DNA from: Gammaproteobacteria bacterium | Lineage (GTDB): Bacteria > Pseudomonadota > Gammaproteobacteria > Steroidobacterales > Steroidobacteraceae | DNA: 35,151 nt | NCBI GenBank assembly: GCA_030040715.1 | Contig: JASHTF010000170.1 | Coordinates: forward strand, 1 to 35,151 | Direction: 5' to 3' | Shown here: positions 1 through 34,490 of the stretch, piece by piece | Layout of the letters: the number at the start of each line of letters is the position of its first letter | Numbering within the stretch: the stretch's first letter is position 1 | Position numbers and translations under genes: made by a program | Notes under the pieces: generated by a model | The model's input: only the letters and a program-made list of their open reading frames with translations | What the model was told of the DNA's origin: nothing | Databases searched by the model: none

Positions 1-2787
1 GTCGCGCGGATGCAGCAGATAGCGAATGCGGCCATCGTCCTCGAACACCGCGTAGCCCGCCAGTACGCCGTCGGGAAGCAGCAGGCGCTGAAAGTCCTGC
101 TGCACCCGATCGGCCTGACGCTCGAGTCCGGGCGCGGCGTCCGCGCGCCCGACCAGGCGCAGCGCCCGCGCCAGCGACCTCAGCGCTTGCACCTGCAGCG
201 TCACGGTCCAGGCACTGCACATGCGCTCGCGCAGCGCCGGATCGGCGGGCTGGAGCGAGTCGTTCCAATCGCCATGCCCATAGGCAGCCAATGCCGTTCC
301 CGGAATCACCCGCCGTGCACTCAGGGCGAGTGCACGCTGCGCGTGCTCCCAGACGCTCGCCCGCTCGCCCGCATCCGGACCGCGGCCATCGAAGAACCGC
401 ACCTGCTGGTCGAGCAACGCTGCATCCCCGGAAGCGATCAGATACTGTGCCAGCACCACCAGCGGCCACAGCACGATATCGCCGTTGGCATCGCCGGCGC
501 GGATCTGCCGCTCGCGCTCGAAGAAGGTAAACCACTGCGGCCAGTCGCCATCGGCGTTCTGGGCCGCCAGCACTCGCAGCAGCAGGTCGCGTATCGGCTC
601 GATGCGCTCGAGCGCCAGCAGCAGCTCGACCGGCCCCTGACAGACATCGCGTGTACCCCAGCCGCCCCCCGAGTACTGCTCGAGTCCGCGCGGCGAGAGG
701 TAATGCACCAGCGCGTTCTGCGCGTACCACGGCACGATGTCGCCAAGCCGCGCGGCCTGCGCGCCGAGCACGCTGGCCGACGGCACCTCGAGGGTGAGCT
801 TCGGTATGAGGTCGGCCGCATCGCGCAGCAGCAACGGCGACTCCGTCTCCTCGACGATCAACTCTCCGCGCAGACTCACCCCGAGCTGAAGAGCGGGCGC
901 AGTCTGAACGCATAGATAGGGTTGGCCGCGCGAGCGGCCATCGACAAACAGCCGCTCATCGCCGCTGACTGCCTCGAGCCGGGTCGCGGGCAGCGGCGTG
1001 ATGCGGAACTGTCCCTGAGGAAAGCGCCGCGCCAGCTCGCCGCCCGGTGGAACCGAGACGACGAGGTCCGTGCCGTCACGCCGCCAAGCCAGTGCCGTGG
1101 CCGCCTCGCCGTCATCGCCACCGAAGGCGATCTGATGGCACAACAGAAACCGCGCCGGCGCGCCGCTCGCAACCGTGATCGACAGCGACAGCGCGTGGGG
1201 ATCGCTGTGGGCAGCGGAGCGCAGCTCGATCACTCCGCCCTCATGGCGATAGATCCAGCGACACGCCGCCGGCGACATCTCGAACGCCGACGGCACATCC
1301 AGCAGGTACCAGAGCTCACCGAGTTGCACGAATACCCGCTGGCCCTGAGCGCGGAACAATCCCAGATATCCGTGCACGGCCGACAGGAAGCGATTGATGT
1401 TGACGTGTCCCTGCGTCACCATCGAATGAAACACCCCGCTCATCCACACCGTGGAGGTGAGCGCGGCTTCGGCCGGTGTCGTGTGCCGCCCGGTGCGCAG
1501 CAGCTGTCCATGCGGTCGTAGCACGCGCAGCTCCTTGGCGCGCAGCACCACGTGTCGGTCGGTGCCATAAAAGAAGGACAGCCAGCACCCGCGCTCATCG
1601 CGCTCCTCCTGCCGCCACGGCCGTGGAAACAGCCGCTGCAGCGCCTGCCCGTCCAGCTCGAGCGTCGCCAGCGGCGGGGCCGAACTGAACAAGGTCGCAC
1701 TGCAATCCGCACTGCGACCGGCACTGCGACTCGCGCTGCGGTCTCCGCTCTGCACCGTGCCGTCCGGCGCGCTCTGAACCGAGCCGCCCGCGGTACTCTG
1801 AACCGAGCCGCCCGCGGTGCTCGGAGTAATCGGTGGTCGCGACGTCGCCGGTGCTCGCGCCTGCGGCAGTGCCAACGCCTCGGCGAGGCGCTCGAGGTCG
1901 GCCGCGGAAGTGGCCGCCGGATGATCGTTGAGGGCGAAGCCGAAGAAGCCCGTCTTGGCGCAGCCACCCGGAGCGAGCCGGATGGGCTCGTCCCGAATCA
2001 CGACCATCGAGTGCTCGTGCTGCAGACGACGCCCAGGCAGCTCGCCGGCAATGCCCGGCAGCTCGTCCCCTACCCGACCCGCCAGGCCGTAGAGCTGCAG
2101 CGCGTCAGTGGCAAACGAGACGGCGCTGCGGAGCGAGCCGATGAGGCACCAGGGATGACGCCCCTCCACCGGTTGGTTCTGGCGTGAGCCCACGACCCAG
2201 CCCCGCATCGCGTGCCGCAGCGGCGCATGATCAATGTATTGACTGACAAAATACTCGTTCATGCGCACTGCGCCGTAAGGGGCAAGTGCCACATCCTGCG
2301 CGTAGGTCAGATCGATCTCCTGCGGCCTGGAGCCGCGGTTCTCGCATTGCACATGCCAGAACCAGGCCAGGGCACGCTCAGCGAGCACCAGGGTGACCGA
2401 GTAGCTCAAGTCCTCCCAGATTCCGTAGCCGACGAGCTGCCGGTCGGTCGCTTCAGCACCGAACACGGTGGCACTCCGCGGTCCGAGCAAGGCCGTCCAT
2501 TGCGCAGCCCCGCCGGCGTCAGCCGGCCGCTGGGCATCGGGCCGCCGCCGCAGATAGAGATTGGCCGGCCCGCCTTCGAGCTCGCTGCCCGGGAACAGCA
2601 GCAACGAGACCGCGCCGCAGTCAAAGCGCCGCAGGGAGCCATTCGAGTTGATCTCGGCGCTCACGCCGGCGGCGTTACTGAGGCGCCAGCCGCGTGCAGG
2701 GTCGGGCGATTGCGTCACGGCGCAAATCCTTACGCGCCCGTCGCCGACATGCAACCCTCGGCCGCCATAGGACGACTCACGGATCAT
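1..2787 (-). CDS. GH94-type glycoside phosphorylase/glucan synthase-like protein, partial
   Basis: The reverse strand is open without a stop from an ATG at 2787 to the left edge (929 codons seen), so the C-terminus lies outside the window. The start has an AAGGA nine bases upstream. The N-terminal half carries a beta-sandwich region with GPANLYLRR (about residue 75) and a segment typical of NdvB/cellobiose phosphorylases (DLTYAQDVALAPYGAVRMNE, about 160-180). Near residue 704 lies QYSGGGWGTRDVCQGP, and near 838-843 GHGDWNDS, which holds the Asp that acts as general acid in GH94 enzymes. The family phosphorolyses or rearranges beta-glucosidic linkages. Which substrate this one uses cannot be told, and nothing is seen of the glycosyltransferase part of a full cyclic glucan synthase. 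It is divergent from the polyketide operon. A Ser/Ala/Gly-rich repeated insertion sits near residues 310-365. Confidence 0.8.
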   Translation of the reverse strand, partial: MIRESSYGGRGLHVGDGRVRICAVTQSPDPARGWRLSNAAGVSAEINSNGSLRRFDCGAVSLLLFPGSELEGGPANLYLRRRPDAQRPADAGGAAQWTALLGPRSATVFGAEATDRQLVGYGIWEDLSYSVTLVLAERALAWFWHVQCENRGSRPQEIDLTYAQDVALAPYGAVRMNEYFVSQYIDHAPLRHAMRGWVVGSRQNQPVEGRHPWCLIGSLRSAVSFATDALQLYGLAGRVGDELPGIAGELPGRRLQHEHSMVVIRDEPIRLAPGGCAKTGFFGFALNDHPAATSAADLERLAEALALPQARAPATSRPPITPSTAGGSVQSTAGGSVQSAPDGTVQSGDRSASRSAGRSADCSATLFSSAPPLATLELDGQALQRLFPRPWRQEERDERGCWLSFFYGTDRHVVLRAKELRVLRPHGQLLRTGRHTTPAEAALTSTVWMSGVFHSMVTQGHVNINRFLSAVHGYLGLFRAQGQRVFVQLGELWYLLDVPSAFEMSPAACRWIYRHEGGVIELRSAAHSDPHALSLSITVASGAPARFLLCHQIAFGGDDGEAATALAWRRDGTDLVVSVPPGGELARRFPQGQFRITPLPATRLEAVSGDERLFVDGRSRGQPYLCVQTAPALQLGVSLRGELIVEETESPLLLRDAADLIPKLTLEVPSASVLGAQAARLGDIVPWYAQNALVHYLSPRGLEQYSGGGWGTRDVCQGPVELLLALERIEPIRDLLLRVLAAQNADGDWPQWFTFFERERQIRAGDANGDIVLWPLVVLAQYLIASGDAALLDQQVRFFDGRGPDAGERASVWEHAQRALALSARRVIPGTALAAYGHGDWNDSLQPADPALRERMCSAWTVTLQVQALRSLARALRLVGRADAAPGLERQADRVQQDFQRLLLPDGVLAGYAVFEDDGRIRYLLHPRD
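1772..1819 (-). repeat. 24-bp tandem duplication inside the GH94 gene
   Basis: Two adjacent 24-base units that differ only at the last base (1772-1795 and 1796-1819). On the coding (minus) strand they give a duplicated octapeptide of the form STAGGSVQ. Next to it (about 1690-1760) are shorter 12-base repeats giving a run of RSA-like units. The in-frame length keeps the gene open, so this is a low-complexity linker that has grown by slippage. Confidence 0.8.
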
Positions 2788-2862
2788 GCGACGCGATCCT
2801 TGCGCGGCGAGCGCGCGAGATGTCAGATTGAGGCGGTCTGTAAATCTCGCCTGGTCCCGTGC

Positions 2863-3921
2863 ATGTACCTGAATGGCATCGGCACGGCAACGCCACCCAC
2901 CCGCTACACCAAAGCAGATTGCTGGGAGGCGCTGCAGCGCTCGCAGTGGTACCGGCGGCTCGATAGCCGCGCGATCGCCTTAGCGAAGGTCATTCTGCTG
3001 GGCGATAACGGCATCGAGGCTCGACGGCTCGCGCTCTCGCGCCTCGAGGAATGCTTCGATATCGATCCCGAGACGCTGCACGGCCGCTTTGTCACTCATG
3101 CCCCGCAGCTCGCGGCCCAAGCCGGATGGCAGGCACTCGCGGCCGCGCGGCACGGCGCCCGCGACATCGACGCCGTCGTGGTCAGCACCTGCACCGGCTA
3201 TCTGTGCCCCGGCCTGTCGGGCTACGTCATCGAAAGGCTCGGCCTCAGAAGCGATATTCAGGCGCTCGATCTGGTCGGACAAGGCTGCGCGGCAGCGCTG
3301 CCCAACATGCGTCTCGCTCGAGCGTTGCTCGACGCAGGCGAATGTGCCCATGTGCTGTCGATCTGCGTCGAGGTCAGCAGCGCCGCCATGTATCTCGATA
3401 ACGATCCTGGCGTGCTCGTCAGTGCCTGCCTGTTCGGCGATGGCGCGGGTGCCGCCGTGCTGTCGGTCCGCCCGACCGCAGGGCAGCGCTCGATCCGCTG
3501 GCACGATAGCGAGTCACTCATAGACGTCGAGCATCGCGACGCCCTGAGATTCGAACAGCGCTCAGGTATGTTGCGCAACATATTGACGCGTCAGGTGCCG
3601 ACGCTGGCCGCCGAGCGCGCCCAGCGCGTACTCGGACGCGTGTTGCAGCGCTCGGACCTGCAGCCCTCGCAGCTCAGCGCCTGGATCATGCACGCCGGCG
3701 GGCGCGACGTGTTGCTGGCGCTGCAGCAGCGGCTGGAGCTGACCGCTCAGGAGCTGCGCTACAGTGCCGAGATGCTGCGAGAGTATGGCAACCTCTCGAG
3801 CGCCTTTGTCTACTTCGTTCTGCAGGCGGCACTCGCCGACGGAGCCCCTGCTGGCTGGTGGTGGCTCAGCTCCTTCGGCGCGGGATTTTCCTGTCACGGA
3901 GCACTGCTGCAAGTGAGCTGA
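2863..3921 (+). CDS. type III polyketide synthase
   Basis: A 352-residue chalcone/stilbene synthase superfamily enzyme, a normal length for bacterial members. It should condense malonyl-CoA with an acyl starter and cyclise the chain to a pyrone, resorcinol or related ring. The catalytic triad is visible: Cys142 in VGQGCAAALPNM, His277 in WIMHAGGRD and Asn310 in EYGNLSSAF. The start at MYLNGIGTATPP is chosen because family members begin this way. The frame is open further upstream, but that part lies antisense to the GH94 gene. No strong Shine-Dalgarno is seen. The next gene begins four bases after the stop, so this is the first gene of a five-gene operon. Starter length and ring type cannot be read from the sequence. 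The order PKS-methyltransferase-flavoprotein matches the Streptomyces srsABC phenolic-lipid operon. Confidence 0.9.
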   Translation: MYLNGIGTATPPTRYTKADCWEALQRSQWYRRLDSRAIALAKVILLGDNGIEARRLALSRLEECFDIDPETLHGRFVTHAPQLAAQAGWQALAAARHGARDIDAVVVSTCTGYLCPGLSGYVIERLGLRSDIQALDLVGQGCAAALPNMRLARALLDAGECAHVLSICVEVSSAAMYLDNDPGVLVSACLFGDGAGAAVLSVRPTAGQRSIRWHDSESLIDVEHRDALRFEQRSGMLRNILTRQVPTLAAERAQRVLGRVLQRSDLQPSQLSAWIMHAGGRDVLLALQQRLELTAQELRYSAEMLREYGNLSSAFVYFVLQAALADGAPAGWWWLSSFGAGFSCHGALLQVS

Positions 3922-3925
3922 GCTC

Positions 3926-4657
3926 TTGAGCTTCAAGAGAACGGTATCGGCGGAGGAGCTGGACAGTCTCGCGGCGGATGATCCGCGGGCCCAGCGGGCG
4001 CGCCGCGACCTGCGGCGGGTCAACTGGCTCATGCGGACCCGCGACATCCTGATCGATGCGCTGCGCTCGACCGCGAGCGATGCGCGCCGCTCGAGCGGCG
4101 CACCGCTGCGGTTGCTGGAGCTCGGCGCCGGTGATGGCAGCCTGCTGCTCGCGGTCGCGAAGAAGACGGCGCGCACCTGGCCGCCCGTGGAACTGACGCT
4201 GCTCGATCGGCTGTCGCTGGTCGACACCGCGACCTGTGCGGCGTTCGGCCGCGTCGGCTGGCGAGCGCACCCGCTGGCGATGGACGTGCTCGTCTGGGCG
4301 ACGACGGCTCCGGCCGCGCGGGCGCCGCGCTGCGATGCCATCGTGACGAACCTGTTTCTGCATCACTTCGCCGATCAGCAGCTGCATGAGTTACTGTCCG
4401 CGATCGCTGCGCGCTGCGACCTGTTCGTCGCCTGCGAGCCCCGTCGCGCCGTCCTGCCGCTGGCTGGCAGCCACCTGCTCGGCTTCGTCGGGGCCAGCCG
4501 CCTGACGCGCGCCGACGCGGTGCTGAGCGTGCGCGCCGGCTTCGCGCAGCGGGAGATCTCGCAGCTGTGGTCGAAGGTGCCCGGCGAGTGGGACGTGCAG
4601 GAGCAAGCGGCGGGCTTGTTTGCACATTGTTTTCGCGCTGCCAGGAGAGGAGCGTGA
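3926..4657 (+). CDS. class I SAM-dependent methyltransferase
   Basis: A 243-residue protein with a Rossmann SAM-binding motif I, LLELGAGDGS (about residues 63-72), an acidic loop after beta-strand 2 (TLLDR, 91-95) and a motif IV-like TNLFLHHFAD (141-150). The start is TTG at 3926, four bases after the polyketide synthase stop. The first in-frame ATG (about 4031) would remove a conserved-looking helix ahead of the SAM fold, so TTG is preferred. The likely role, by analogy to SrsB in alkylresorcinol operons, is methylation of the aromatic product made by the upstream synthase, on either oxygen or carbon. The stop overlaps the next gene (GTGA), which indicates translational coupling. The acceptor substrate is inferred from context only. 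Confidence 0.85.
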   Translation: MSFKRTVSAEELDSLAADDPRAQRARRDLRRVNWLMRTRDILIDALRSTASDARRSSGAPLRLLELGAGDGSLLLAVAKKTARTWPPVELTLLDRLSLVDTATCAAFGRVGWRAHPLAMDVLVWATTAPAARAPRCDAIVTNLFLHHFADQQLHELLSAIAARCDLFVACEPRRAVLPLAGSHLLGFVGASRLTRADAVLSVRAGFAQREISQLWSKVPGEWDVQEQAAGLFAHCFRAARRGA

Positions 4658-5913
4658 GCCCATCCATGAGGTCGCACGATGCACGCGCGGACTATGAGGC
4701 TATCGTCGTCGGTGGCGGCCCAGCGGGGGCGACGGCCGCGATCCTGCTGGCGGAGGCCGGCTGGCGGGTCGCCGTGCTGGAGCGGCAAAGCTTCCCCCGC
4801 CGTAAGGTGTGCGGCGAATGTATCGCGGCGAGCAATCTGCCGCTGCTGGATGCGCTCGGCGTCGGTGCTGCCTTTGATGCGCTGGCCGGCCCGGAGCTGC
4901 ATGATGTCGGCCTGCTGTGCGGACCGCACTCGATTCGTGCCCCGCTACCAGCCGTCGCGGCCGGCGCATCCCGCTTCGGGCGCGCGCTCGGGCGCGAGCA
5001 CCTGGACATGCTCTTGCTCGAGCGTGCCCGCGAGCTCGGCGCGGCCGTGCTGCAGCCGTGTAGCGCGCTTTCGATCCGAGACCGCACCCGCGGCACGCTC
5101 TGTGAGGTGCTGACCGAGGACGGCACGGGCGGCGGTCGCGGCGCGTCCGCGGTGCTGCGTGCGCCCATCGTCATCGACGCCCACGGGTCATGGCAGCGGC
5201 TGCGTACTGAGCCGGTGCGCGAGCGGCGAGGGCTGTCCGCAGGCGATCTGCTGGCGTTCAAGGCCAACTTCACCCGCACGGCATTGGAGCCAGGCGTGCT
5301 GCCAGTGCTGTGCTTTCGCGGTGGGTATGGTGGTATGGTCGTCGCCGATCACGCGACCACGACGCTGGCCTGCTGCATTCGGGCTGGGCGCTTGGAGGCG
5401 TGTCGTCGGCGCGTACCGGGGCGCCGCGCAGGTGATGTGGTGGAAGCGTATCTGCGGGATCAATGCGCCGGCGTGCGCGACGCGCTCGAGGGAGCCGAGC
5501 GCGTGGGACCTTGGCTGGCGGCCGGACCGCTACGACCCGGCATACGTGTGTCGCGGGGCGAGGCGGTATTCGTGATCGGCAACGCCGCCGGCGAAGTGCA
5601 CCCGATCATCGGCGAAGGAATCAGCATGGCGATTCAATCGGCATGGCTGTTGTGTGAGCAGCTGCGACGCGAGCGCGATGTGCTCGGCTGCGGCGGCGCG
5701 GCGCGGCGCTGCCGGCGCGTGATCCACCAGAGGTATGCTGCTCAGTGGCGCGCGCACTTCGGAGTGCGGCTGCGGCTGGCGAGCTGCTTCGCGCACGCCG
5801 CGATGCAGCCGGCTCTGTGGCGCGGTGCGCTGCTACTGATGCATCGCTCGCCGCGCTGGCTCACCCACGCTGCCCGCTGGAGCGGCAAGATCCGATGTGC
5901 AGTCCAACCGTAG
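4654..5913 (+). CDS. FAD-dependent oxidoreductase, geranylgeranyl reductase/hydroxylase type
   Basis: A 419-residue flavoprotein. The dinucleotide fold is near the N-terminus (VVGGGPAGATAA, GxGxxG at residues 20-25) and is followed by FPRRKVCGE (about 47-55), typical of geranylgeranyl-reductase-like and related monooxygenase/halogenase families. A second FAD motif, GNAAGEVHPIIGEG, lies near 309-322. The start is the GTG at 4654, which overlaps the methyltransferase stop and has AGGAG six bases upstream. ATG 4666 is a weaker alternative. In the operon it could hydroxylate the polyketide ring to a hydroquinone/quinone, as SrsC does, or reduce double bonds in an acyl or isoprenoid chain. The motifs do not separate these. 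The last 19 bases overlap the acyl carrier protein gene. Confidence 0.85.
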   Translation: MSPSMRSHDARADYEAIVVGGGPAGATAAILLAEAGWRVAVLERQSFPRRKVCGECIAASNLPLLDALGVGAAFDALAGPELHDVGLLCGPHSIRAPLPAVAAGASRFGRALGREHLDMLLLERARELGAAVLQPCSALSIRDRTRGTLCEVLTEDGTGGGRGASAVLRAPIVIDAHGSWQRLRTEPVRERRGLSAGDLLAFKANFTRTALEPGVLPVLCFRGGYGGMVVADHATTTLACCIRAGRLEACRRRVPGRRAGDVVEAYLRDQCAGVRDALEGAERVGPWLAAGPLRPGIRVSRGEAVFVIGNAAGEVHPIIGEGISMAIQSAWLLCEQLRRERDVLGCGGAARRCRRVIHQRYAAQWRAHFGVRLRLASCFAHAAMQPALWRGALLLMHRSPRWLTHAARWSGKIRCAVQP

Positions 5914-6275
5914 AGCCCAGTACGCTCGAGCGGCTGTCGACGCTCCTGGCGCAGAAATTCAAGCTCGATCCAGCCAGCATCTCTCCCGCACAGCCGCTCG
6001 AGCAGTTCGGCATCGACTCGCTCGGTATGGTCGAGCTGCTGTTCTTCATCGAAGACGAATTCCAGGTGAAGATGCCGTCCGATCCTCCGCCGTTTGCTAC
6101 CGTGGGCGATGCGGTCCGATACATCGACGAGCTGCTCGCCGCTCAGCGTTCGGCGCCGGCGGTCGATAGCACGGCGCCGCCGGTCTCGAGGGCCGATCGG
6201 ACGACTACCGCCGGCGGCGAGTTGCCGCACTCGCCACGAGCCGATGGTGACGCCGGGCAAGCCGAACGACGATGA
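5895..6275 (+). CDS. acyl carrier protein
   Basis: A 126-residue protein. Residues 8-85 form a standard carrier domain with the phosphopantetheine attachment motif FGIDSLGMVEL (Ser42) and the acidic helix II that docks partner enzymes (FFIEDEFQV). The remaining 40 or so residues are an Ala/Pro/Thr/Arg-rich tail not found in ordinary ACPs, which are about 80 residues long. The ATG at 5895 lies inside the end of the flavoprotein gene, and the stop overlaps the ketosynthase start (ATGA). It presumably carries the growing acyl chain for the downstream ketosynthase, and perhaps hands a starter to the type III synthase. It is unlikely to be the housekeeping AcpP, which sits in the fab cluster. Confidence 0.9.
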   Translation: MCSPTVEPSTLERLSTLLAQKFKLDPASISPAQPLEQFGIDSLGMVELLFFIEDEFQVKMPSDPPPFATVGDAVRYIDELLAAQRSAPAVDSTAPPVSRADRTTTAGGELPHSPRADGDAGQAERR

Positions 6276-7504
6276 GGCGCATCGCGATCACCGGCATCGG
6301 AGTCATCTCGCCGCTCGGAAACAGTGCGGAGGCTGCGTACAGCGATGCGGTGGCTGGCCGCTCTGCCATCCGCCGTCTCGATTCAGACTGGAGTGCACGC
6401 CTCGCCGCGCCGGTGGCCGCCTGTGTCAACTTCAACGGTGAGCAGCATTTCGATGCGCCCAAGCTGCGCATGCTCGACCGCGTCAGTCAGTTTGCCCTCG
6501 TCGCCGCCCGCCAGGCGATCGCCGACTGCGGACTCGATATCGCTCGGCTTGATCGATCACGGTGTGGGGTGTTTATCGGCTGCGGTCAGGGAGGAGGATG
6601 TACCAGCGACGAGGGCTACCTCACGCTCTACGGAGAGCGCCTGGATCGTGTCAGGCCGTTCACGGTGCTGATGAGCATGACCAACGCGCCCGCGGGCTGG
6701 ATCGCGATCGAATATCGGATCACCGGACCGAACCTCACCTACTCGACTGCGTGCTCGTCCTCGGCAGTCGCGATCGGCGAGGCGTGGATGCGGTTGCGGA
6801 GCCGCGAGCTCGACGTCGCGATTGCAGGTGGCGCCGAGGCACCGCTGTGCTTCGGTGCGTTGAAGGCCTGGGAGGCACTGCGTACGCTGGCGAGCGAGGA
6901 CCCCGCCGATGCATCGCGCTCGTGCAAGCCGTTCGCAAGTGATCGCAGCGGCATGGTGCTCGGCGAGGGTGCGGCGATCCTGGTGCTGGAGGAGTGGGAG
7001 CGTGCCAGGGCGCGCGGCGCTCTGATCCACGGCGAGCTGATCGGCTACGGCGTGACGACCGATGCCGGCCACATCACTCGACCGAGCGTCGAGGGTCAGG
7101 CCGCAGCGATGCGCGCTGCGTTGCAGTCGGCCGATTGCCCGGCGGCATCGATCGGCGCCATCAATGCCCACGGAACGGGCACTCAGGCAAACGATGGCGT
7201 CGAGACCGCTGCGATCAAGCTCATCTTCGGAGCGCATGCCTATCGCATCCCTATCAGCGCTACCAAGGCAATTCATGGGCACCTGCTCGGCGCCAGCGCC
7301 GCGCTGGAGTTGGCGCTGTCGCTGCTCGCGATGCGCCACGCGGTGGCGCTGCCGACCATGCATCTGCAACAGCCGGCACCAGACTGTGACCTGGATTACG
7401 TTCCCAACGCTGCGCGTCGAGGGGTGCCGGTCGCGACCCTGATGTCGAACTCGTTCGCCTTCGGCGGGACCAATGCAGCGCTGATCGTGCGTGGCGCCGA
7501 TTGA
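6272..7504 (+). CDS. beta-ketoacyl-ACP synthase, FabF/KAS II type
   Basis: A 410-residue decarboxylating condensing enzyme of full family length. The active-site Cys161 is in YSTACSSS, with His300 in NAHGTGTQAND and Lys332/His337 in TKAIHGHLLGA. All triad residues are kept, so this is not a chain-length factor. It extends ACP-bound acyl chains with malonyl-ACP. It is the last gene of the polyketide operon and is translationally coupled to the ACP by ATGA. No ketoreductase, dehydratase or enoyl reductase is encoded nearby. Full reduction would need enzymes from primary fatty acid synthesis, or the product keeps keto groups. The likely role, inferred from position, is to make or lengthen the starter for the type III synthase. 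Confidence 0.9.
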   Translation: MRRIAITGIGVISPLGNSAEAAYSDAVAGRSAIRRLDSDWSARLAAPVAACVNFNGEQHFDAPKLRMLDRVSQFALVAARQAIADCGLDIARLDRSRCGVFIGCGQGGGCTSDEGYLTLYGERLDRVRPFTVLMSMTNAPAGWIAIEYRITGPNLTYSTACSSSAVAIGEAWMRLRSRELDVAIAGGAEAPLCFGALKAWEALRTLASEDPADASRSCKPFASDRSGMVLGEGAAILVLEEWERARARGALIHGELIGYGVTTDAGHITRPSVEGQAAAMRAALQSADCPAASIGAINAHGTGTQANDGVETAAIKLIFGAHAYRIPISATKAIHGHLLGASAALELALSLLAMRHAVALPTMHLQQPAPDCDLDYVPNAARRGVPVATLMSNSFAFGGTNAALIVRGAD

Positions 7505-7551
7505 CCGCCCGAGGCTGACTGCACGGCAAACTCTGACTGGAGTATCTTTAG

Positions 7552-7576
7552 GTGCCACGCCCGGTCGGCGTGGCAC
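7552..7576 (+). repeat. perfect 10-bp inverted repeat ahead of hydrolase gene
   Basis: GTGCCACGCC and GGCGTGGCAC flank a five-base loop. The repeat lies 48 bases after the ketosynthase stop and 26 bases before the hydrolase ATG. There is no T-run after it, so a simple intrinsic terminator is not supported. It may be an operator or an RNA hairpin in the 5' leader. Confidence 0.75.
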
Positions 7577-7602
7577 GGCTGGGTGCAAACGGGGGTACCG
7601 AC

Positions 7603-8511
7603 ATGAGCGATGCGAAGAAAGACCCGCAGGACATCGACCTGTCACCGGACGACCGATCACGGCGCAAGTTCGTAGCCATGACGGCGGCGGCGGGCCTGGC
7701 TGCCACGAGCGTTGCCGGTGCGGCGGGACGCATGCAGGTAGTCGAGAAGGACGTCACCATCCAGACCGCGGATGGTATCTGCGACGCAGCCTTCTTCCAT
7801 CCGGCGAGCGGCGCGCATGCCGGTGTCCTCATTTGGACCGATATCTTCGGACTGCGGCCGACGTTTCGCGACTTCGGCCGGCGCCTCGCCGGCGAGGGCT
7901 ACGCGGTGCTGGTCCCTAATCCGTTCTATCGGACCGCCAAAGCACCGGTGTTCGGCCCGATCTCGTCGTCGTTCAATTTCGCCGATCCCGACGTCCGCGC
8001 CAAATTTCAGCAGCTCACAGGGCCGATCAACGCCGCGGGTGCGATCGAGCGCGACGCCCAGGCGCATATCGCCTTCCTGGATGCGCAGCCGCAGGTGCAC
8101 AGATCAAGAAGGATTGGCACCCAGGGGTATTGCATGGGTGGGCCGCTGGTGTTCCGAACCGCCGCTGCGGTCGCCGAGCGGGTGGGCGGGGCCGCCACTT
8201 TCCACGGCGGCGGTCTGGTGACCGACGGCGCCAACAGCCCCCATTTGCTGATACCCAAGATGAAGGCGCGCTTCTACGTCGCCATCGCCGCGAGCGACGA
8301 TGCCAAGCAGCCGGATGCCAAGGACAAGCTGCGCGAGGCCTTTGCTGCGGCTCACGTTCCGGCCGAGGTCGTCGTGTACACAGGCATGCAGCATGGATGG
8401 TGCGTGCCGGACATGCCGAATCAGGCGAACGGCGCGCCGATCTACAACAAACCGGAAGCCGAGCGAGCCTGGAGTAAGCTGCTGGCGCTGTACCACACGG
8501 CACTGGCCTGA
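7603..8511 (+). CDS. Tat-exported dienelactone hydrolase-like protein
   Basis: A 302-residue alpha/beta hydrolase of the dienelactone hydrolase family. The N-terminus has a twin-arginine motif, SRRKFVA (about 19-25), then a hydrophobic Ala-rich stretch to about residue 42, so folded export to the periplasm is likely. The nucleophile elbow is GYCMGG (Cys177), with a candidate acid at Asp232/233 and His264 in MQHGWCVPD. The conserved segment DIFGLRPTFRDFGRRLA is also present. The start ATG at 7603 is preceded by a G-rich tract and gives the Tat motif at a normal distance. An in-frame upstream start at 7552 would lie in the hairpin. The family cleaves cyclic esters, lactones and thioesters. Its nearness to the polyketide operon, 99 bases downstream on the same strand, leaves open a link to that product. 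Confidence 0.85.
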   Translation: MSDAKKDPQDIDLSPDDRSRRKFVAMTAAAGLAATSVAGAAGRMQVVEKDVTIQTADGICDAAFFHPASGAHAGVLIWTDIFGLRPTFRDFGRRLAGEGYAVLVPNPFYRTAKAPVFGPISSSFNFADPDVRAKFQQLTGPINAAGAIERDAQAHIAFLDAQPQVHRSRRIGTQGYCMGGPLVFRTAAAVAERVGGAATFHGGGLVTDGANSPHLLIPKMKARFYVAIAASDDAKQPDAKDKLREAFAAAHVPAEVVVYTGMQHGWCVPDMPNQANGAPIYNKPEAERAWSKLLALYHTALA

Positions 8512-8690: not shown

Positions 8691-9269
8691 GTGCTCGATG
8701 CAACCCACCGCGACGCTGTCTCACCGATCTTTACCGTCGGTCATTCGACCCGCGCGATCGCTGAGTTCATCACCCTGCTGCAGCAGGCTGCGGTCGATCT
8801 GCTGATCGATGTGCGGTCGATTCCGCGCTCGCGTACCAATCCACAGTTCAATATCGATACGCTGCCGGATTCGCTCGCCGCCGCGGGCATCGGCTATCAA
8901 CACCTCGCCGCGCTCGGCGGACGCCGCCACCGGCCTGCGCACTCGCCGCCATCACCCAACACGCTGTGGCAGAACGTGGCCTTTCGCAACTATGCCGACT
9001 ATGCCGGCGGGGACACGTTTCGCGCCGGCCTCGGTGAGCTGCAGGCGCTCGCCCGCGCGCAGCGCTGCGCGATCATGTGCGCCGAGGCGGTCTGGTGGCG
9101 CTGTCATCGGCGCATCATCGCCGACTATCTGCTCGCGCGCGGCACGCCGGTAATGCACATCATGGGAGAGGGGAAACTGGTGCCCGCGCAGCTCACGCCC
9201 GGCGCACAACCGCTGGCTGACGGGCGGATCGTCTATCCGGGGCCGGAAGTATCGGGTAGTCCGCACTGA
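8691..9269 (+). CDS. DUF488 family protein
   Basis: A 192-residue protein with the DUF488 hallmarks: an N-terminal FTVGHSTR (about 14-21), then LLIDVRSIPRSRTNPQFN (about 37-54), and a C-terminal MCAEAVWWRCHRRIIADYL, which holds the Cys and His pairs conserved in the family. The start is a GTG at 8691, placed just ahead of the conserved core. No good ribosome site is seen. The biochemical role of the family is not settled. It is probably cytoplasmic since no signal or membrane segment is present. It converges on the SCO1-like gene, with 91 bases between the stops that contain only short GC-rich repeats. Confidence 0.85.
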   Translation: MLDATHRDAVSPIFTVGHSTRAIAEFITLLQQAAVDLLIDVRSIPRSRTNPQFNIDTLPDSLAAAGIGYQHLAALGGRRHRPAHSPPSPNTLWQNVAFRNYADYAGGDTFRAGLGELQALARAQRCAIMCAEAVWWRCHRRIIADYLLARGTPVMHIMGEGKLVPAQLTPGAQPLADGRIVYPGPEVSGSPH

Positions 9270-9360
9270 GGCAGGCTGGAGTCCGGCCGCGGCACTTAGC
9301 CCGCGGCACTCAGGCCGCCCGCTGCGGCCGCGCCGCAGGTTCTCGCGCCTGGCGGCCAGC

Positions 9361-9996
9361 TCAGCCCGCCGATAGGGAGGAAAGATCCTCGGCGAGCTGC
9401 GCAGCGGGCTCGGTGTCCGGTACCAGTAATCGCGCCCGTCCCTCCGGGTCGAACACGAACACGGCGCTGCTGTGATAGACGTCGTAGTTGCCCTGCGCAT
9501 CGGGCGGCGCCCGCCGATAGGCGACGCGATAGCGCTTGGTCAGCGCCAGCAGCTGCTCATCGGAGCCGCTGACGCCGATCACCTGCGGCGCAAAGTAGCT
9601 CGCATAGCGCGCGAGCACGGCCGGCGGATCGCGCTCGGGATCGACCGACACGAACAGCACCCGCACCCCGTCGGCGGAGACACCGAGCTGGCGCAGCGCG
9701 GCGGACAGCCGCGCCAGGGTTGCCGGGCACACGTCGGGACAATGGGTGTAGCCGAAGTACAGCAGCGTGGTCTTGCCACGCACGAACTGCTCGCTGATTG
9801 GCTGACCGGCGGGTCCCCTCAGATGAAATGCCAGCGGTGGCATGAAGCCGCTGATGTCCGCGGCATGATAGGGGCTGGTCGCGGGGCGTGAACCGCCGCA
9901 GCCGCCCGCCAGGGCCGTACAGATCGTGACCGCCAGGATCGTCGCCAGCGAGGACGACATCCGCGACGGCGCGAGGCGCTGCAGTGGCTTGCTCAT
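9361..9996 (-). CDS. SCO1/SenC/PrrC-like copper protein
   Basis: A 211-residue thioredoxin-fold protein. It has an N-terminal hydrophobic export segment (about 16-32) ending in LAGGC, which may be a lipidation site (Cys33). The SCO copper ligands are present: the CPDVC pair (Cys86, Cys90) and the distant His175 in DVYHSSAVF, along with FVSVDPERD (about 115-123). The family delivers copper to the CuA centre of cytochrome oxidase or acts as a thiol-disulfide exchanger in the periplasm. The start overlaps the end of the upstream ctaG-like gene by four bases, so the two are co-translated. No oxidase subunit genes are in the window. Confidence 0.9.
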   Translation of the reverse strand: MSKPLQRLAPSRMSSSLATILAVTICTALAGGCGGSRPATSPYHAADISGFMPPLAFHLRGPAGQPISEQFVRGKTTLLYFGYTHCPDVCPATLARLSAALRQLGVSADGVRVLFVSVDPERDPPAVLARYASYFAPQVIGVSGSDEQLLALTKRYRVAYRRAPPDAQGNYDVYHSSAVFVFDPEGRARLLVPDTEPAAQLAEDLSSLSAG

Positions 9997-10916
9997 GTCT
10001 GCCCGCCTGCCAACGCCGGCAGCTCGAGGGCGGGAGCTGCAGGCGGCGGAGCACCGACCGAGCTGCCGGTAACCGCAACCGCAGCGGCCGCGCCGTTACG
10101 CACGCGTTCGTCGTGATACATCCAGCGGCGCAGCACGATCAGCGCGGCCGCGCTGCACATCATGCTGGCGGGGATCCAGGTGATGAGGCCTCCGATCTGC
10201 TGGTCGGTGACTGCATCGACCGGCCATAGCCGCCCGCAGACCTCGTAAACCGTATAAACAGTGCCTCGGTGCAGCGACAGATACGCCCCGATGATGGTCT
10301 CGGGCACCATGGTCAGCAGCGCCAGCGGAATGCGCGTGCCCAATCGCATCGCCGCGCCCTGATCCTGCGCGCGTGGATCCAGGATCAGCGACCAGAACAG
10401 CAGCCCATCGAGGGCCACGCTCCAGTTCATCAATTTGTACTCGCGCAGGCTGAGCATCGCGCGAAAATGCACGCTCGGCCACAGCCACAGGTAGATGAGT
10501 CCGACGAACAGCGTGAACGCCACCAGCGGCTGCGTCACCACGGCGTAAACGCTGCGCACCGCGGGTGAGCTCCACAGACGCCGCAGCGACGAGCGCCACG
10601 AGGCGGGCAGTCCCGCTCCCAGCACCGGCCAAGGCGCCGCCAGCGCCACGAGAAAAGAGGCGAAGTCGTGCAGCAGGAAGTGCTGCAGGCGGTGCATCCA
10701 GAACATGTGCTGCGCCAGATAGTCGTAGCGCGTCTGCAGCGGGACATACAGCAGCAGTATTCCGAGGTAGAACGACGTTTGCCGCCAGCGCGAGAGAGCG
10801 GCGTGATGAAGTGCCCTCGCGCGTGTGCCGCGGACGAACAGCACTACCATCGACAGGCAGAACGCGAGTACGGTAACCGAGAAATCCCAGGGCAGGAGCC
10901 AGTGCAGCAGCATCAT
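9993..10916 (-). CDS. ctaG: CtaG-family cytochrome oxidase assembly factor
   Basis: A 307-residue polytopic membrane protein of the caa3-type CtaG family, with about seven hydrophobic segments. Recognisable stretches are LQTRYDYLAQHMFWMHRLQHFLLHD (about 60-85, rich in His and Met that may bind copper) and MVPETIIGAYLSL (about 216-228). The family helps assemble the CuB or haem-copper centre of cytochrome c oxidase. This is distinct from the soluble-domain Cox11 protein, which is also called CtaG. It is the first gene of a two-gene unit with the SCO1-like gene. The last 30 residues are a Pro/Ala-rich tail. The start is the first of two adjacent ATGs, and no clear Shine-Dalgarno is visible. Confidence 0.85.
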   Translation of the reverse strand: MMLLHWLLPWDFSVTVLAFCLSMVVLFVRGTRARALHHAALSRWRQTSFYLGILLLYVPLQTRYDYLAQHMFWMHRLQHFLLHDFASFLVALAAPWPVLGAGLPASWRSSLRRLWSSPAVRSVYAVVTQPLVAFTLFVGLIYLWLWPSVHFRAMLSLREYKLMNWSVALDGLLFWSLILDPRAQDQGAAMRLGTRIPLALLTMVPETIIGAYLSLHRGTVYTVYEVCGRLWPVDAVTDQQIGGLITWIPASMMCSAAALIVLRRWMYHDERVRNGAAAAVAVTGSSVGAPPPAAPALELPALAGGQT

Positions 10917-28458: not shown

Positions 28459-29184
28459 TCACAGCCCCAGAAAGGATTTTCTCACCGCGTCGTCGCGCAG
28501 CAGATCGCGGCCCGGGCCGGAAAGCGTCACCCTGCCCTTCTCGAGAACGTAAGCGCGATCCACAACCTCCAGTGTCTGGAACACATTCTGCTCGACCAGG
28601 ATGAGCGCGATGCCCATCGCGCGGATCGTCCCAATAAGGCCAAACAGATCGTCCACCATTTTGGGCATCAGGCCGAGCGAAGGCTCGTCCAGGACCAGCA
28701 GACGTGGATTGCCCATCAGGCCGCGGGCGATGGCCAGCATCTGCTGTTCGCCGCCGCTCATCGAGCCTGCCAGTTGATGGCGCCGTTCGGCAAGACGCGG
28801 AAACAAAGCGAACACGCGTTCGAGATTGACGGCGTAACTGTGCCGGGCGCGCCGGGCATAGGCGCCCAGCTGCAGGTTCTCGCTCACACTCATGCGAGGG
28901 AAGAGCAGCCGCCCTTCTGGTACCAGAGTGATTCCGAGCTCGACGATCCGGTGCGACGGCAGCGACGTCACGTCGTCGGCATCGAACCGCAGCCGGCCCT
29001 GCGCCGGCGGCAGCACTCCAGCGATCATCTTGACCGTGGTCGATTTTCCGGCCCCGTTGGCTCCGAGCAGAGCGATCGCCTCGGCGGCACGGACCGTGAA
29101 GGACACATCCTCGACCGCGATCACGCCGTCATAGGCAAAGGCGAGCCCTTGGGCATCGAGCAGCGGAGAGACGCCCGCGGTCAT
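28459..29184 (-). CDS. LIV-type ABC transporter ATPase LivF
   Basis: A 241-residue ATPase of the branched-chain amino acid type importer family. Walker A is GANGAGKST (41-49), the signature is MSGGEQQMLAIARGL, Walker B is RLLVLDEPSLGL, and a LivF-like LVEQN H-loop region lacks the usual His (LILVEQNVFQTLEV), which is normal for LivF. The start ATG at 29184 overlaps the upstream stop by ATGA; the open frame continues for 85 codons of Arg-rich shadow sequence, which I exclude. It pairs with the LivG domain to power transport. Confidence 0.9.
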   Translation of the reverse strand: MTAGVSPLLDAQGLAFAYDGVIAVEDVSFTVRAAEAIALLGANGAGKSTTVKMIAGVLPPAQGRLRFDADDVTSLPSHRIVELGITLVPEGRLLFPRMSVSENLQLGAYARRARHSYAVNLERVFALFPRLAERRHQLAGSMSGGEQQMLAIARGLMGNPRLLVLDEPSLGLMPKMVDDLFGLIGTIRAMGIALILVEQNVFQTLEVVDRAYVLEKGRVTLSGPGRDLLRDDAVRKSFLGL

Positions 29185-30962
29185 CGCACCGGCTCTGAAA
29201 CCGAGCCGAGCTCGAAGGGCTTGCCGAGATAGGCTTCGATCACGGCCGGGTCGTGCGCCACATCGAGCGGCGGACCTTGAGCAATGAGGCGACCGGCCGC
29301 GACTACAAACACGACGTCGGACATCCTCATCACCGCTTGCATGTCGTGCTCGGCCAGAAACACGGTCGTACCGGTGCGCCGCACCGCCTGGATCATGTCC
29401 ATCATCTCTCGAGTCTCGGTCGGATTGAGGCCGGCACACGGCTCATCCGCCAGCACGAGCCGTGGCCGCGTCGCCAACGCTCGGGCCAATTCGAGGCGCC
29501 GTAGATGCCCGACGGGCAACGAGGCGGCCGGCTGATCCGCCAGCGCGGACAGGCGCGCGAGAGCGAGCGCATCCATCGTCAGCTGGTGAGGGTCGCGGGA
29601 GCCGTCACGCCCGAACAGCGCACCGACCAAAACGTTGTCATAGACGCTGAGACCATGGAACGGCCTGGCGATCTGGAACACGCGCGCGATACCCGCGCGG
29701 CTCAGCCGATGGGTCGGCAAACCGTCGATGCGCGTGCGCTGGTACCAGATCTCGCCCGAGTTCGGTGCCAAATACCCGGTCACGAGGTTGAAGAGGGTCG
29801 ATTTGCCAGCGCCGTTCGGCCCGATGATGGCTGAGATGCTGCCGCTTCGTAGCTGCAGGTCGATCTGATCGATGGCCTTGAGCCCGCGAAACTGGCGGCT
29901 CAGACCAACCAACTTCAGAACCGCTTCATCGGTCTGTGGACAGGCCGGCGCGGGCGGCTGCTCGGCTGCGGTTACGGCTCGCTCTTCCGGCATCGGCGTG
30001 CCGACCACCGTCAGGATGCGTCGGTGCCCGCGCATCAAACCCATCAGGCCGCTCGGCAGCAGGAACACGAGCGCAATGATGATGATTCCTGTCATCAGCA
30101 TGTGGATCTGAAGCAAGCCACCGAGCACGACTTGATTCAGAACGGCCATGATGGCCGCTCCGAGCACCGGACCCGCCAGCGTCCCCATGCCGCCGAGCAG
30201 CGCATAGACAACGACGTCGAACGACAGCTGCGACCGGAACACTGAGCTCGTGGTGACGTAACCGAGGTTGAAGGCGTAGGCTGCGCCGGCGAGTCCGATC
30301 AGGAGCGCGCTCACAATGAATCCCACGAGCTTATAGCGCTCCGTCGGAACGCCCAGCATGCGGGCGGTGTCCTCGTCCTCGCGAATGGCGATCAGTCCGT
30401 AGCCCAGGCGCGAATAGCGCACCGCCGCCGCAATGCTCAGCGCAATCACGGCGAGCGCCAGGAATACGTAGAAGAAGAAGCGTTCCGGCGCCGCGGCCGT
30501 CACCGGATCGATCGTAACGCCGACCGCACCCTCAAACACGTCGAGGCCGCTCGAAAGCTCCGCGAGAATCAGGCTGACGCCCAGCATCGCGATCGAGAAG
30601 TAGGCCCCTCGCAATCGCAAGATCGGATACCCGATGATCGCAGCCAGTAAGCTCGCCGCGATCCCGCCCATCGCCAGTGCCACAGCCAGACGCAACGCGG
30701 GGTCAGCGATCTGAACGTGCTCCTGCATCAGGGCCGCCGTGAACGCGCCCAGGCCCAGAAAGGCCGCCGAGCCAAAGCTCCAGTACCCGGCAAAGCCTCC
30801 GAGGATGTTCCAGGCGATCGCGAGCGCGGCACCGAACAAGATGGTTTGCGCGACGCGCAGAGCGAACGGAGATGCGATTAGGGGCAGCACGGCGAGCGCG
30901 CCCAAAACCGCAGCGCCAGCGATCCCCGTCCTGACGGCTCTCCGGGAGAGCGGTCGCTTCAT
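29181..30962 (-). CDS. LivM-LivG fusion: ABC permease plus ATPase
   Basis: A 593-residue fusion. Residues 1-325 are a LivM-type permease with about nine hydrophobic helices and the LIV signature AIREDEDTARMLGV (about 193-206). After a Pro/Ala/Glu linker, residues 346-593 form a LivG-type ATPase with Walker A GPNGAGKST (381-389), a LPVGHLRRLELARAL signature, Walker B RLVLADEP and an EHD H-loop. The LivG signature diverges from LSGGQ, as is usual in that family. Fused LivM-LivG proteins are known in other proteobacteria. Both ends overlap neighbouring genes by four bases, so the set is translated as one unit. Confidence 0.9.
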   Translation of the reverse strand: MKRPLSRRAVRTGIAGAAVLGALAVLPLIASPFALRVAQTILFGAALAIAWNILGGFAGYWSFGSAAFLGLGAFTAALMQEHVQIADPALRLAVALAMGGIAASLLAAIIGYPILRLRGAYFSIAMLGVSLILAELSSGLDVFEGAVGVTIDPVTAAAPERFFFYVFLALAVIALSIAAAVRYSRLGYGLIAIREDEDTARMLGVPTERYKLVGFIVSALLIGLAGAAYAFNLGYVTTSSVFRSQLSFDVVVYALLGGMGTLAGPVLGAAIMAVLNQVVLGGLLQIHMLMTGIIIIALVFLLPSGLMGLMRGHRRILTVVGTPMPEERAVTAAEQPPAPACPQTDEAVLKLVGLSRQFRGLKAIDQIDLQLRSGSISAIIGPNGAGKSTLFNLVTGYLAPNSGEIWYQRTRIDGLPTHRLSRAGIARVFQIARPFHGLSVYDNVLVGALFGRDGSRDPHQLTMDALALARLSALADQPAASLPVGHLRRLELARALATRPRLVLADEPCAGLNPTETREMMDMIQAVRRTGTTVFLAEHDMQAVMRMSDVVFVVAAGRLIAQGPPLDVAHDPAVIEAYLGKPFELGSVSEPVR

Positions 30963-31840
30963 CGCGAGCCGTGGAAGGCGCTTCCCAGCAGGCCGTGGGG
31001 TCTGAGGAGAAGCATCAGCACCAGCACCAGAAATGCCACCGCATTCGGATAGGCCGGCCCGACGAATGCGCCGGTTAGCGCGCTGATGATGCCGAGCAAC
31101 AGGCCACCGAGCAGCGCGCCCGCAGCACTACCCGCGCCGCCCAGGACCACGACCACGAAACCAAAGATAGTCCAGTCCTCCTGGCTCGAGGGTGCAAACG
31201 GAAATAGCATCCCGATGAGCACCCCGGCCGCCCCGGCAAAGGCAGCGGAGAGGCCGAAGCTGATGGCATAAATCTGATCGGTATCGACGCCACACAGCCG
31301 CGCAGCCAGCTCGTGTTCCGCCGTCGCTCGAATGCTGCGGCCGATCGGCAGGCGGCGTAGCACCCATGCCAGGATAGCGATGAGCACGCAGCTGATTGCG
31401 AAGGCGATGAGCTGCAGACGATTGACGGTGATTCCGCCGAAGCGGTCAAAGCTGTTGGCGTAATCCGGTCGGACGCTCTGATTATCGGCAGAGAACACCA
31501 ATGTGAACAGGTTCTGAAGTATGAGCGCGACGCCATAGGTGACCAGCAGCGACGACAGCAGACTGGCGCGCCGTATCGCCGGCGAGATCAGAAAGCGCTG
31601 ATAGAGGTATCCGACCCCGAAGCAGATGGCTGCGATCAGGGGCAGTGCGAGCAGCGGGTCAAGGCCGATCGTCCGCAGCGCGACCAGCGCAAGGTAGGCG
31701 CCGAGGATGATGAGCACGCCATGGCTGAGATTGATTACGCCAAGCACGCCGAAGATCAGAGAGAACCCCACGGCCGCTAGCGACAGAACAGAGCCTTGCA
31801 GCACACCGTCGACGAGCGCCTGGAACAGACGATCTAGCAA
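30959..31840 (-). CDS. LIV-type ABC transporter permease LivH
   Basis: A 293-residue inner-membrane permease with about eight hydrophobic helices. LivH hallmarks are LSLAAVGFSLIFGVLGVINLSHG near the N-terminus (about 20-42), GRSIRATAEHELAARLCGVD (about 172-191, the EAA-like coupling loop) and a C-terminal LVLMLLLRPHGLLG. It forms a heterodimer with the LivM domain. It begins three bases after the binding protein stop and overlaps the fusion gene by four bases. Confidence 0.9.
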   Translation of the reverse strand: MLDRLFQALVDGVLQGSVLSLAAVGFSLIFGVLGVINLSHGVLIILGAYLALVALRTIGLDPLLALPLIAAICFGVGYLYQRFLISPAIRRASLLSSLLVTYGVALILQNLFTLVFSADNQSVRPDYANSFDRFGGITVNRLQLIAFAISCVLIAILAWVLRRLPIGRSIRATAEHELAARLCGVDTDQIYAISFGLSAAFAGAAGVLIGMLFPFAPSSQEDWTIFGFVVVVLGGAGSAAGALLGGLLLGIISALTGAFVGPAYPNAVAFLVLVLMLLLRPHGLLGSAFHGSR

Positions 31841-31843
31841 GGT

Positions 31844-34413: not shown

Positions 34414-34490
34414 TGCGGGGTGGAGCAGTCTGGCAGCTCGTCGGGCTCATAACCCGAAGGTCGCAGGTTCAAATCCTGCCCCCGCTACCA
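34414..34490 (+). tRNA. initiator tRNA-fMet (CAT)
   Basis: A 77-base cloverleaf with anticodon CAT at 34448-34450. It has initiator hallmarks: three G-C pairs at the base of the anticodon stem (GGG...CCC), an A11-U24 pair in the D stem, a TTCAAAT T-loop closed by GCAGG/CCTGC, and an unpaired first position of the acceptor stem. Here that is U1 against U72 rather than the C1-A72 of Escherichia coli. CCA is encoded. Confidence 0.95.

Follow-up and report, generated by a model that had tools for sequence, protein, structure and literature searches.

A conserved five-gene operon combining a type III polyketide synthase with a discrete acyl carrier protein and a NodE-type ketosynthase

The window analyzed here, one whole contig (C303) of 35,151 bases, comes from a Steroidobacteraceae draft genome (4.12 Mb, 428 contigs, 85% complete) and carries on its forward strand, at positions 2863-7504, an operon of five genes. 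They encode a type III polyketide synthase (PKS), an S-adenosylmethionine (SAM)-dependent methyltransferase (MT), an FAD-dependent oxidoreductase or monooxygenase, an acyl carrier protein (ACP) and a β-ketoacyl-ACP synthase (KAS) of the ACP-paired (NodE-type) group. Type III PKSs are commonly regarded as stand-alone enzymes that are coenzyme A (CoA)-fed. We propose, with a probability of roughly 0.57, that the operon encodes a self-contained pathway, in which the KAS and ACP provide the starter unit that feeds the type III PKS, and the MT and flavoprotein modify the resulting phenolic or pyrone lipid. The analysis shows the genes themselves, their conserved active-site residues, the conservation of the operon, the predicted type III fold, the group to which the KAS belongs, and the linkage of the ACP-KAS pair to the PKS where the MT and flavoprotein are absent.

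The five genes and their products

The operon is real and confirmed at this place, with all five open reading frames (ORFs) intact and free of internal stops. The PKS gene (2863..3921, ATG start, 352 residues) is separated by a 4-base gap from the MT gene (3926..4657, TTG start, 243 residues), which overlaps the flavoprotein gene (4654..5913, 419 residues) by 4 bases if the latter starts at GTG 4654; an alternative ATG at 4666 would give 415 residues. The flavoprotein gene shares 19 bases with the ACP gene (5895..6275, ATG start, 126 residues), the end of which overlaps the KAS gene (6272..7504, ATG start, 410 residues) in a 4-base ATGA. In all five genes the G+C content peaks at the third codon position (0.75-0.86). 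The ORFs and Pfam matches bear out the gene calls, the order and the coupling by overlaps or a four-base gap that an earlier note had read from this DNA.

By sequence and predicted fold, the first gene is closer to type III PKSs than to KAS III. In Pfam, FAE1_CUT1_RppA (65 bits) and Chal_sti_synt_N/C match above cut-off, and the ACP_syn_III family also matches. Among NCBIfam models, DpgA scores highest (152 bits, far under its cut-off of 425), and FabH-type models reach 96 bits or less. A profile of 34 PKS relatives, compared with the PDB sequences, hit 2-pyrone synthase best (E 2.6e-43), and the best 60 of its 138 matches were all type III PKSs. The AlphaFold2 model (pLDDT 90.6) superimposes best in VIA-align on Mycobacterium tuberculosis PKS11 (Z 47.0, root-mean-square deviation 1.9, 346 aligned), the entries of which score Z 47.0, 46.9 and 46.5, the next enzymes following at Z 45.4 and lower. 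Each of the 50 structural matches listed by VIA-align (Z at least 44.3) is a type III PKS or contains one as a fusion partner, and Foldseek returned plant type III PKSs together with PKS11. The catalytic triad, aligned to that of chalcone synthase (CHS) and 2-pyrone synthase, consists of Cys142 (codon 3286-3288), His277 (3691-3693) and Asn310 (3790-3792), and is invariant in 34/34 aligned sequences. Among the three positions of CHS that we take to bind the CoA phosphates (K55, R58 and K62), one is basic in the operon PKSs (R36, 34/34), and positions 39 and 43, opposite R58 and K62, are not conserved as basic, in a comparison that covered the operon PKSs as its bacterial members.

The MT carries the motif LELGAGDG and matches Pfam Methyltransf_23/12 and NCBIfam NF004851, all below cut-off; at the same position in eight genome loci lies an MT of 41-58% identity. 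The flavoprotein matches Pfam FAD_binding_3 (1.1e-15) and the geranylgeranyl-reductase superfamily (3.1e-26, below the model cut-off), ranking among geranylgeranyl-reductase, halogenase and monooxygenase models, each below its cut-off. Its closest sequence matches among solved structures are halogenases. Despite these matches, a halogenase role appears disfavored, since WxWx[ILV]P, which we take to be the flavin halogenase motif, is absent from all 84 rows of the flavoprotein family, some of them partial.

The ACP (Pfam PP-binding, 4.7e-9) bears its phosphopantetheine serine, Ser42 (codon 6018-6020), in a DSL motif, the Asp-Ser of which is kept in 66/66 aligned rows, including the two references Escherichia coli AcpP and Neorhizobium galegae NodF. 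Past the carrier domain it extends into a C-terminal tail of ~40 residues rich in Ala, Arg, Pro and Ser. The KAS matches both the N and C parts of Pfam ketoacyl-synt. Its triad Cys161 (6752-6754), His300 (7169-7171) and His337 (7280-7282), placed by alignment, is invariant together with Lys332 in 62/62 PKS-linked KASs. With the PKS triad and the ACP Asp-Ser likewise conserved throughout, the statement that all catalytic residues are intact holds for each of the three proteins.

All 62 PKS-linked KASs have the signature KxxHGH, with the additional histidine at His335 (7274-7276); N. galegae NodE reads KSMHAH and E. coli FabF KSMTGH. The H form also occurs in ACP-adjacent KASs elsewhere, namely in Azoarcus, on plasmids of Xanthomonas sacchari and Paracoccus, in genome G386 and in many genomes of a sampled Burkholderiales family. 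It is not universal: among 13 paired KASs, 11 have H, and loci L191 and L192 have F or M. In a quick-method KAS tree, 61/62 PKS-linked KASs form one exclusive group (SH-aLRT 91), with L061 in an open fork. This group sits beside ACP-paired KASs of other contexts, NodE lies further out, and the host FabF falls outside. The host FabF-like gene, on contig C428 (L153) and cut at the contig end, is 39% identical to the operon KAS and branches outside the operon KASs, a placement subject to a long-branch warning. By sequence comparison, the operon KAS is distinct from housekeeping FabF and belongs with the KASs that mostly come with an ACP of their own, among them NodE with NodF, so that the operon ACP-KAS is to be read as one branch of a large group of such pairs. 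The description of the KAS as simply FabF-like in the earlier note misses the KxxH[G/A]H signature, which is shared with NodE and most of the ACP-paired KASs inspected and has T in place of its first H in FabF.

Two other settings of such pairs were seen. In L145 (X. sacchari plasmid) and L147 (G386, genes identified by eye), the ACP and KAS lie beside a class III aminotransferase and a HAD-type phosphatase, possibly a separate amino-lipid pathway. In L176, L177, L179, L222 and L223, an alpha/beta-hydrolase-like gene (by eye) accompanies an ACP and a paired-type KAS, directly adjacent or close by and apart from any PKS, as a recurring small lipid module.

Conservation of the cassette and linkage of the ACP-KAS pair

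Distribution of the cassette PKS is patchy. At 63% identity or more it was found in 5/60 close relatives, and at 59% or more in 6/369 genomes sampled across the class, the window genome being counted in both. A scan that took one genome from each of 84,980 species yielded 450 confirmed matching stretches, the best 80 of which were fetched; 71 of these loci extend at least 3.2 kb beyond the PKS and form the basis of the counts, the nine shorter ones being left out. All five genes occur in the same order and on the same strand in 55/71 loci, which answers the search for the five-gene order suggested in the earlier note. PKS-MT-flavoprotein alone is found in 14/71, PKS-MT-flavoprotein-ACP in 1/71 and PKS-ACP-KAS in 1/71 (L107), the last being the exception to the joint presence of PKS, MT and flavoprotein genes in 70/71. 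Judged by their titles, most of the best 80 of 450 belong to the beta- and gammaproteobacteria (Polaromonas, Rhodoferax, Massilia, Caballeronia, Accumulibacter, Methylotenera, Ferrovum and Steroidobacteraceae), together with drafts labeled Verrucomicrobia and Nitrospirales. Massilia psychrophila and Keguizhuia sedimenti, both cultured, are among the five-gene carriers. A further cassette copy lies on a Caballeronia plasmid. In a 200-genome sample of the Burkholderiales family to which G428 (L078, Schlegelella) belongs, ten genomes are PKS-positive and seven of them have the five-gene order.

The shared five-gene order exceeds chance and marks a conserved cassette. Protein distances of the five genes correlate at 0.74-0.84 over 59 loci, a pattern as of a jointly inherited cassette. 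Clustering of the neighbors of the 80 loci and the window, based on mechanical gene calls, gave a top non-core cluster of nine loci, which is an apparent antisense shadow of a core gene, and next clusters of six; beyond the core genes and this shadow, no neighbor family, acyltransferases included, is common to more than 6/81 loci. In the PKS tree (quick method; the trees omit L038, L039 and L043, duplicates of L050, L069 and L126), most of the main branches hold five-gene loci, and three-gene loci are dispersed, with 18 label changes at the fewest, or 15 without five truncated loci. This scatter makes repeated loss of the ACP-KAS pair from the cassette likely, the label count itself being unable to separate gain from loss. 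Absences in single genomes are weak evidence because many of the loci come from draft metagenome assemblies.

Exceptional loci indicate with which part of the cassette the pair travels. In L107 and in G086/L044, which sit in different branches of the PKS tree, the order is PKS-ACP-KAS and no MT was seen on the contig; the best match to the cassette flavoprotein in the whole genome is 29% for L107, and the best ones for G086 are 28-34%. Conversely, L042, from the genus of the host itself, and L146, from Mesorhizobium sp. INR15, hold MT (40-42%) and flavoprotein (42-43%) genes behind a different type III PKS (30-31%, FGPG loop) without ACP-KAS. Taken together, these loci suggest that the ACP-KAS pair tracks the PKS rather than the MT and flavoprotein, and they support the earlier note in grouping the pair with the PKS. 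That note had also asked whether the pair occurs without PKS genes in relatives. Pairs at 41-50% KAS identity do so, whereas KASs of at least 56% identity were found in PKS-bearing genomes or records only (8 genomes, 7 of the 200-genome sample and one plasmid), on another contig in G231 and G439; KASs of the next rank, with no more than 50% identity, are located elsewhere. One three-gene locus, L117, is probably a broken five-gene locus, as its genome (G436) has an interrupted KAS on another contig, the edge of which holds the end of a cassette-like flavoprotein gene.

An ACP-KAS pair acting in trans in the three-gene genomes was considered and rejected. In 11 of 14 such genomes, a KAS with the H signature lies beside an ACP-like frame elsewhere. 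A pair of the L182 type occurs in all three PKS genomes of the 200-genome sample that lack the linked pair, in none of the seven with it and in 10/190 PKS-negative ones, which at first suggested complementarity; however, the pair used as query came from a genome related to those three. Similar KASs are common in PKS-negative genomes: the window KAS matched at E<=1e-88 in 31/190 of them, and of 23 KAS loci inspected there, 22 have the H signature and 19 a nearby ACP match. The five-gene genomes G466, G471 and G596 also hold additional KASs at 46-48%.

Proposed starter-unit pathway and rival explanations

In the proposed pathway, the KAS would extend or select an acyl chain on its own ACP. Reduction and dehydration would borrow the housekeeping FabG, FabZ and FabI, the enzymes thought to reduce the chains on NodF. 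Cys142 of the PKS would then accept the acyl group from the operon ACP, and the PKS would add about three malonyl units from malonyl-CoA and cyclize the chain into an alkylresorcinol, an alkylresorcylic acid or an alkylpyrone. Finally, the MT and flavoprotein would methylate and oxidize the ring, possibly to a methoxy-hydroquinone or a quinone. In this scheme we infer how the acyl group passes from the ACP to the PKS, what the KAS catalyzes, the chain length, the ring type and the order of tailoring. The interpretation of the earlier note, in which a dissociated ACP/KAS pair builds the starter of a methylated, hydroxylated phenolic lipid or quinone, is partly supported; as judged from these comparisons, it appears a reasonable and now better supported hypothesis.

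Several observations weigh against the proposed starter-unit pathway. The operon has no ketoreductase (KR), dehydratase (DH) or enoylreductase (ER) gene. Its PKS reads FGAG at the loop where the aligned type III PKSs of known structure have FGPG, so that the ring type is not readable from the sequence. Related ACP-KAS pairs (41-50% KAS identity) are frequent without any PKS, and a KAS at E<=1e-88 is found in 38/200 sampled genomes, of which the five-gene genomes make up seven; the pair is therefore a general module. Fourteen of the 71 loci have no ACP-KAS beside the PKS, and those PKSs, if active, need no linked pair. Relocation is seen in G231, where the pair lies on another contig with ~6.7 kb of PKS-free DNA upstream and the PKS lies at a contig end, and in G439 (L053), where the cassette KAS (65%) and an ACP are on another contig. 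A remote flavoprotein gene (28-34%) lies a few hundred bases upstream of the PKS in G086, which makes the lack of a tailoring oxidase in this genome uncertain.

These observations bear on two rival explanations, both of which we consider unlikely. The pair may be a separate, readily moved module that shares only transcription with the PKS: the PKS would use acyl-CoA or housekeeping acyl-ACP, and the ACP and KAS would make another acyl chain, for instance one esterified to the phenol. The many genomes and contexts in which related pairs occur without a PKS, including NodFE and the aminotransferase/HAD-phosphatase neighborhood, are consistent with this, as are the linked pair missing from 14/71 loci and the unlinked one in G231. 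However, the pair stays with the PKS in L107 and G086, where the MT and cassette-type flavoprotein are absent, and neither an acyltransferase nor any other neighbor family recurs beyond the 6/81 loci given above. Slightly more doubtful is a hybrid route to the ring, in which the KAS would perform one unreduced condensation and the PKS would take the β-ketoacyl-ACP and complete the ring with fewer malonyl units. The lack of KR, DH and ER genes, the intact KAS triad and the linkage of the ACP-KAS to the PKS would suit such a route, and germicidin synthase is reportedly able to start from β-ketoacyl-ACP. Yet the same PKS type occurs without a linked KAS in 14/71 loci, so it presumably needs no partner to finish the ring, and housekeeping reductases could serve the ACP, as is thought for NodF.

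A third reading, in which the first gene is a FabH-like KAS III and the operon a special fatty-acid or β-diketone line, is very improbable. It draws on the name that PLSDB/RefSeq gives to the Caballeronia homologue ("3-oxoacyl-[acyl-carrier-protein] synthase III C-terminal domain-containing protein"), on the FabH-type model matches and on the FGAG loop in place of FGPG. The DpgA model nevertheless scores higher than any FabH-type model (152 against at most 96 bits), and type III PKSs fill both the best 60 of 138 profile matches in the PDB and the 50 structural matches listed.

If the starter-unit pathway is correct, three small proteins would form a simple system for studying how a discrete ACP passes its acyl chain to a type III PKS and how a NodE-type KAS controls chain length. 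The operon would also indicate, in many environmental proteobacteria (Polaromonas, Rhodoferax, Massilia, Caballeronia, Accumulibacter, Methylotenera and others), a phenolic lipid or quinone that seems not to have been described. A broader idea, which we hold tentatively and at somewhat less than even odds, is that the operon represents a distinct and widespread branch of type III PKSs normally dependent on their own discrete ACP and NodE-type KAS. Such a dissociated KAS-ACP-PKS starter line, with or without the MT and flavoprotein, might make an undescribed class of phenolic lipids or quinones in many beta- and gammaproteobacteria.

Neighboring genes and comparison with known systems

Upstream of the operon, a divergent gene at 1-2787 on the reverse strand encodes a glycoside phosphorylase of the SOGP/GH94 type (SOGP_N 2.1e-59), which is cut by the contig start and lies outside the conserved cassette. 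The 75-base gap between its start and the PKS start (2788..2862) is by position the likely promoter region; a scan of 2600-7800 gave no sigma-70-type match (0.4 in shuffles), and two terminator-like sites against 1.7 in shuffles, not above chance. The next gene downstream of the KAS encodes a dienelactone-hydrolase-like protein, also outside the conserved set. Further away, a histone-deacetylase-family gene (33192-34256, forward strand; 3.9e-73) adjoins a branched-chain amino-acid type ABC transporter operon (28459-33070, reverse strand). At the far end, a tRNA-Met gene (34414-34490, forward strand) lies 14 bases from a phage-integrase-family gene (34505-35149, reverse strand; Pfam Phage_integrase 2.5e-29) that leaves the contig end, an arrangement resembling the border of an integrated element.

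The first three genes have their closest parallel, by gene content alone (PKS, MT and flavoprotein), in the srs and hid operons. In srsABC of Streptomyces griseus, a type III PKS, an MT and a flavoprotein lie in one operon, with a proposed route from resorcinol through methylation to oxidation; to our knowledge it includes no ACP-KAS pair. Operons of the same three enzyme types are hidABC of picocyanobacteria (hierridin) and the MT-flavoprotein-PKS operons of planctomycetes (PMC8086630, PMC10896814). The order hidC>hidA>hidB occurs in some clusters, and the commoner order is MT-flavoprotein-PKS, compared to PKS-MT-flavoprotein-ACP-KAS here; the available parts of these papers name no ACP or KAS gene in them (PMC8086630, PMC10896814). 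In the nearest tested parallel among the papers searched, a study on Planctomycetota, the PKSs gave pentadecyl- and heptadecylresorcinols, and the MT and flavoprotein of Gimesia maris added one methylation, probably on carbon, the flavoprotein role being left unresolved by its authors (PMC10896814).

The L146 locus (Mesorhizobium sp. INR15 plasmid) and L042 keep the order PKS-MT-flavoprotein, and differ in the PKS, the FGPG loop and the lack of ACP-KAS, as described above. In L146, a gene of the cyclopropane-fatty-acyl-phospholipid synthase family (9134-10408) follows the three, with transposase genes on both flanks.

The closest parallel to the pair itself is NodF/NodE, which acts in Nod-factor acylation. 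In N. galegae, next to nodD1-nodABCI, an ACP and a KAS are adjacent as in the operon, the KAS being 41.7% identical and the KxxH[G/A]H signature present in both. A Pfam scan covering 26 proteins of the window, one of them without a match, gave no nodulation gene, and the operon is therefore compared with NodFE and not classed as NodFE.

Besides ArsA, the ars operon of Azotobacter vinelandii encodes ArsD as a further type I fatty acid synthase protein. As in the proposed pathway, the ACP domain of ArsA hands an acyl chain directly to type III PKSs and the product is a phenolic lipid (PMC6274091); the difference is that a type I protein stands there where the operon has a separate ACP and a separate KAS. 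The same source describes an ArsB Trp281/ArsC Gly284 switch, and lists Gcs, SCO7671, ArsB and ArsC as type III PKSs that use acyl-ACP starters (PMC6274091). In a second paper, CylI of the cylindrocyclophane pathway is proposed to take over a chain that was started on the free ACP CylB, and HidC to use acyl-ACP (PMC8086630). Feeding of a type III PKS by an ACP is thus less exceptional than had been assumed in the earlier note. Gcs, SCO7671 and CylB-CylI resemble the operon in being supplied with acyl-ACP or with a chain started on a free ACP; the passages of these papers mention no NodE-type KAS beside these PKSs, and in the Cyl system type I PKSs stand between the ACP and the type III PKS. Serine palmitoyltransferase with AcpR is, in the excerpt available, a lipid synthase that prefers its own ACP (PMC9386255).

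No description of the five-gene operon was found in the open-licence PMC literature, a search of titles, abstract starts and passages among the matches listed, with subscription papers and supplements outside its scope; nor was it in the available parts of PMC8776678, PMC9542644 and PMC5916927, the last represented by its reference list. Against the literature searched, ACP-fed type III PKSs and PKS-MT-flavoprotein operons are known already, and what appears new is a single widespread operon that unites the two with a NodE-type KAS and an ACP as discrete proteins.

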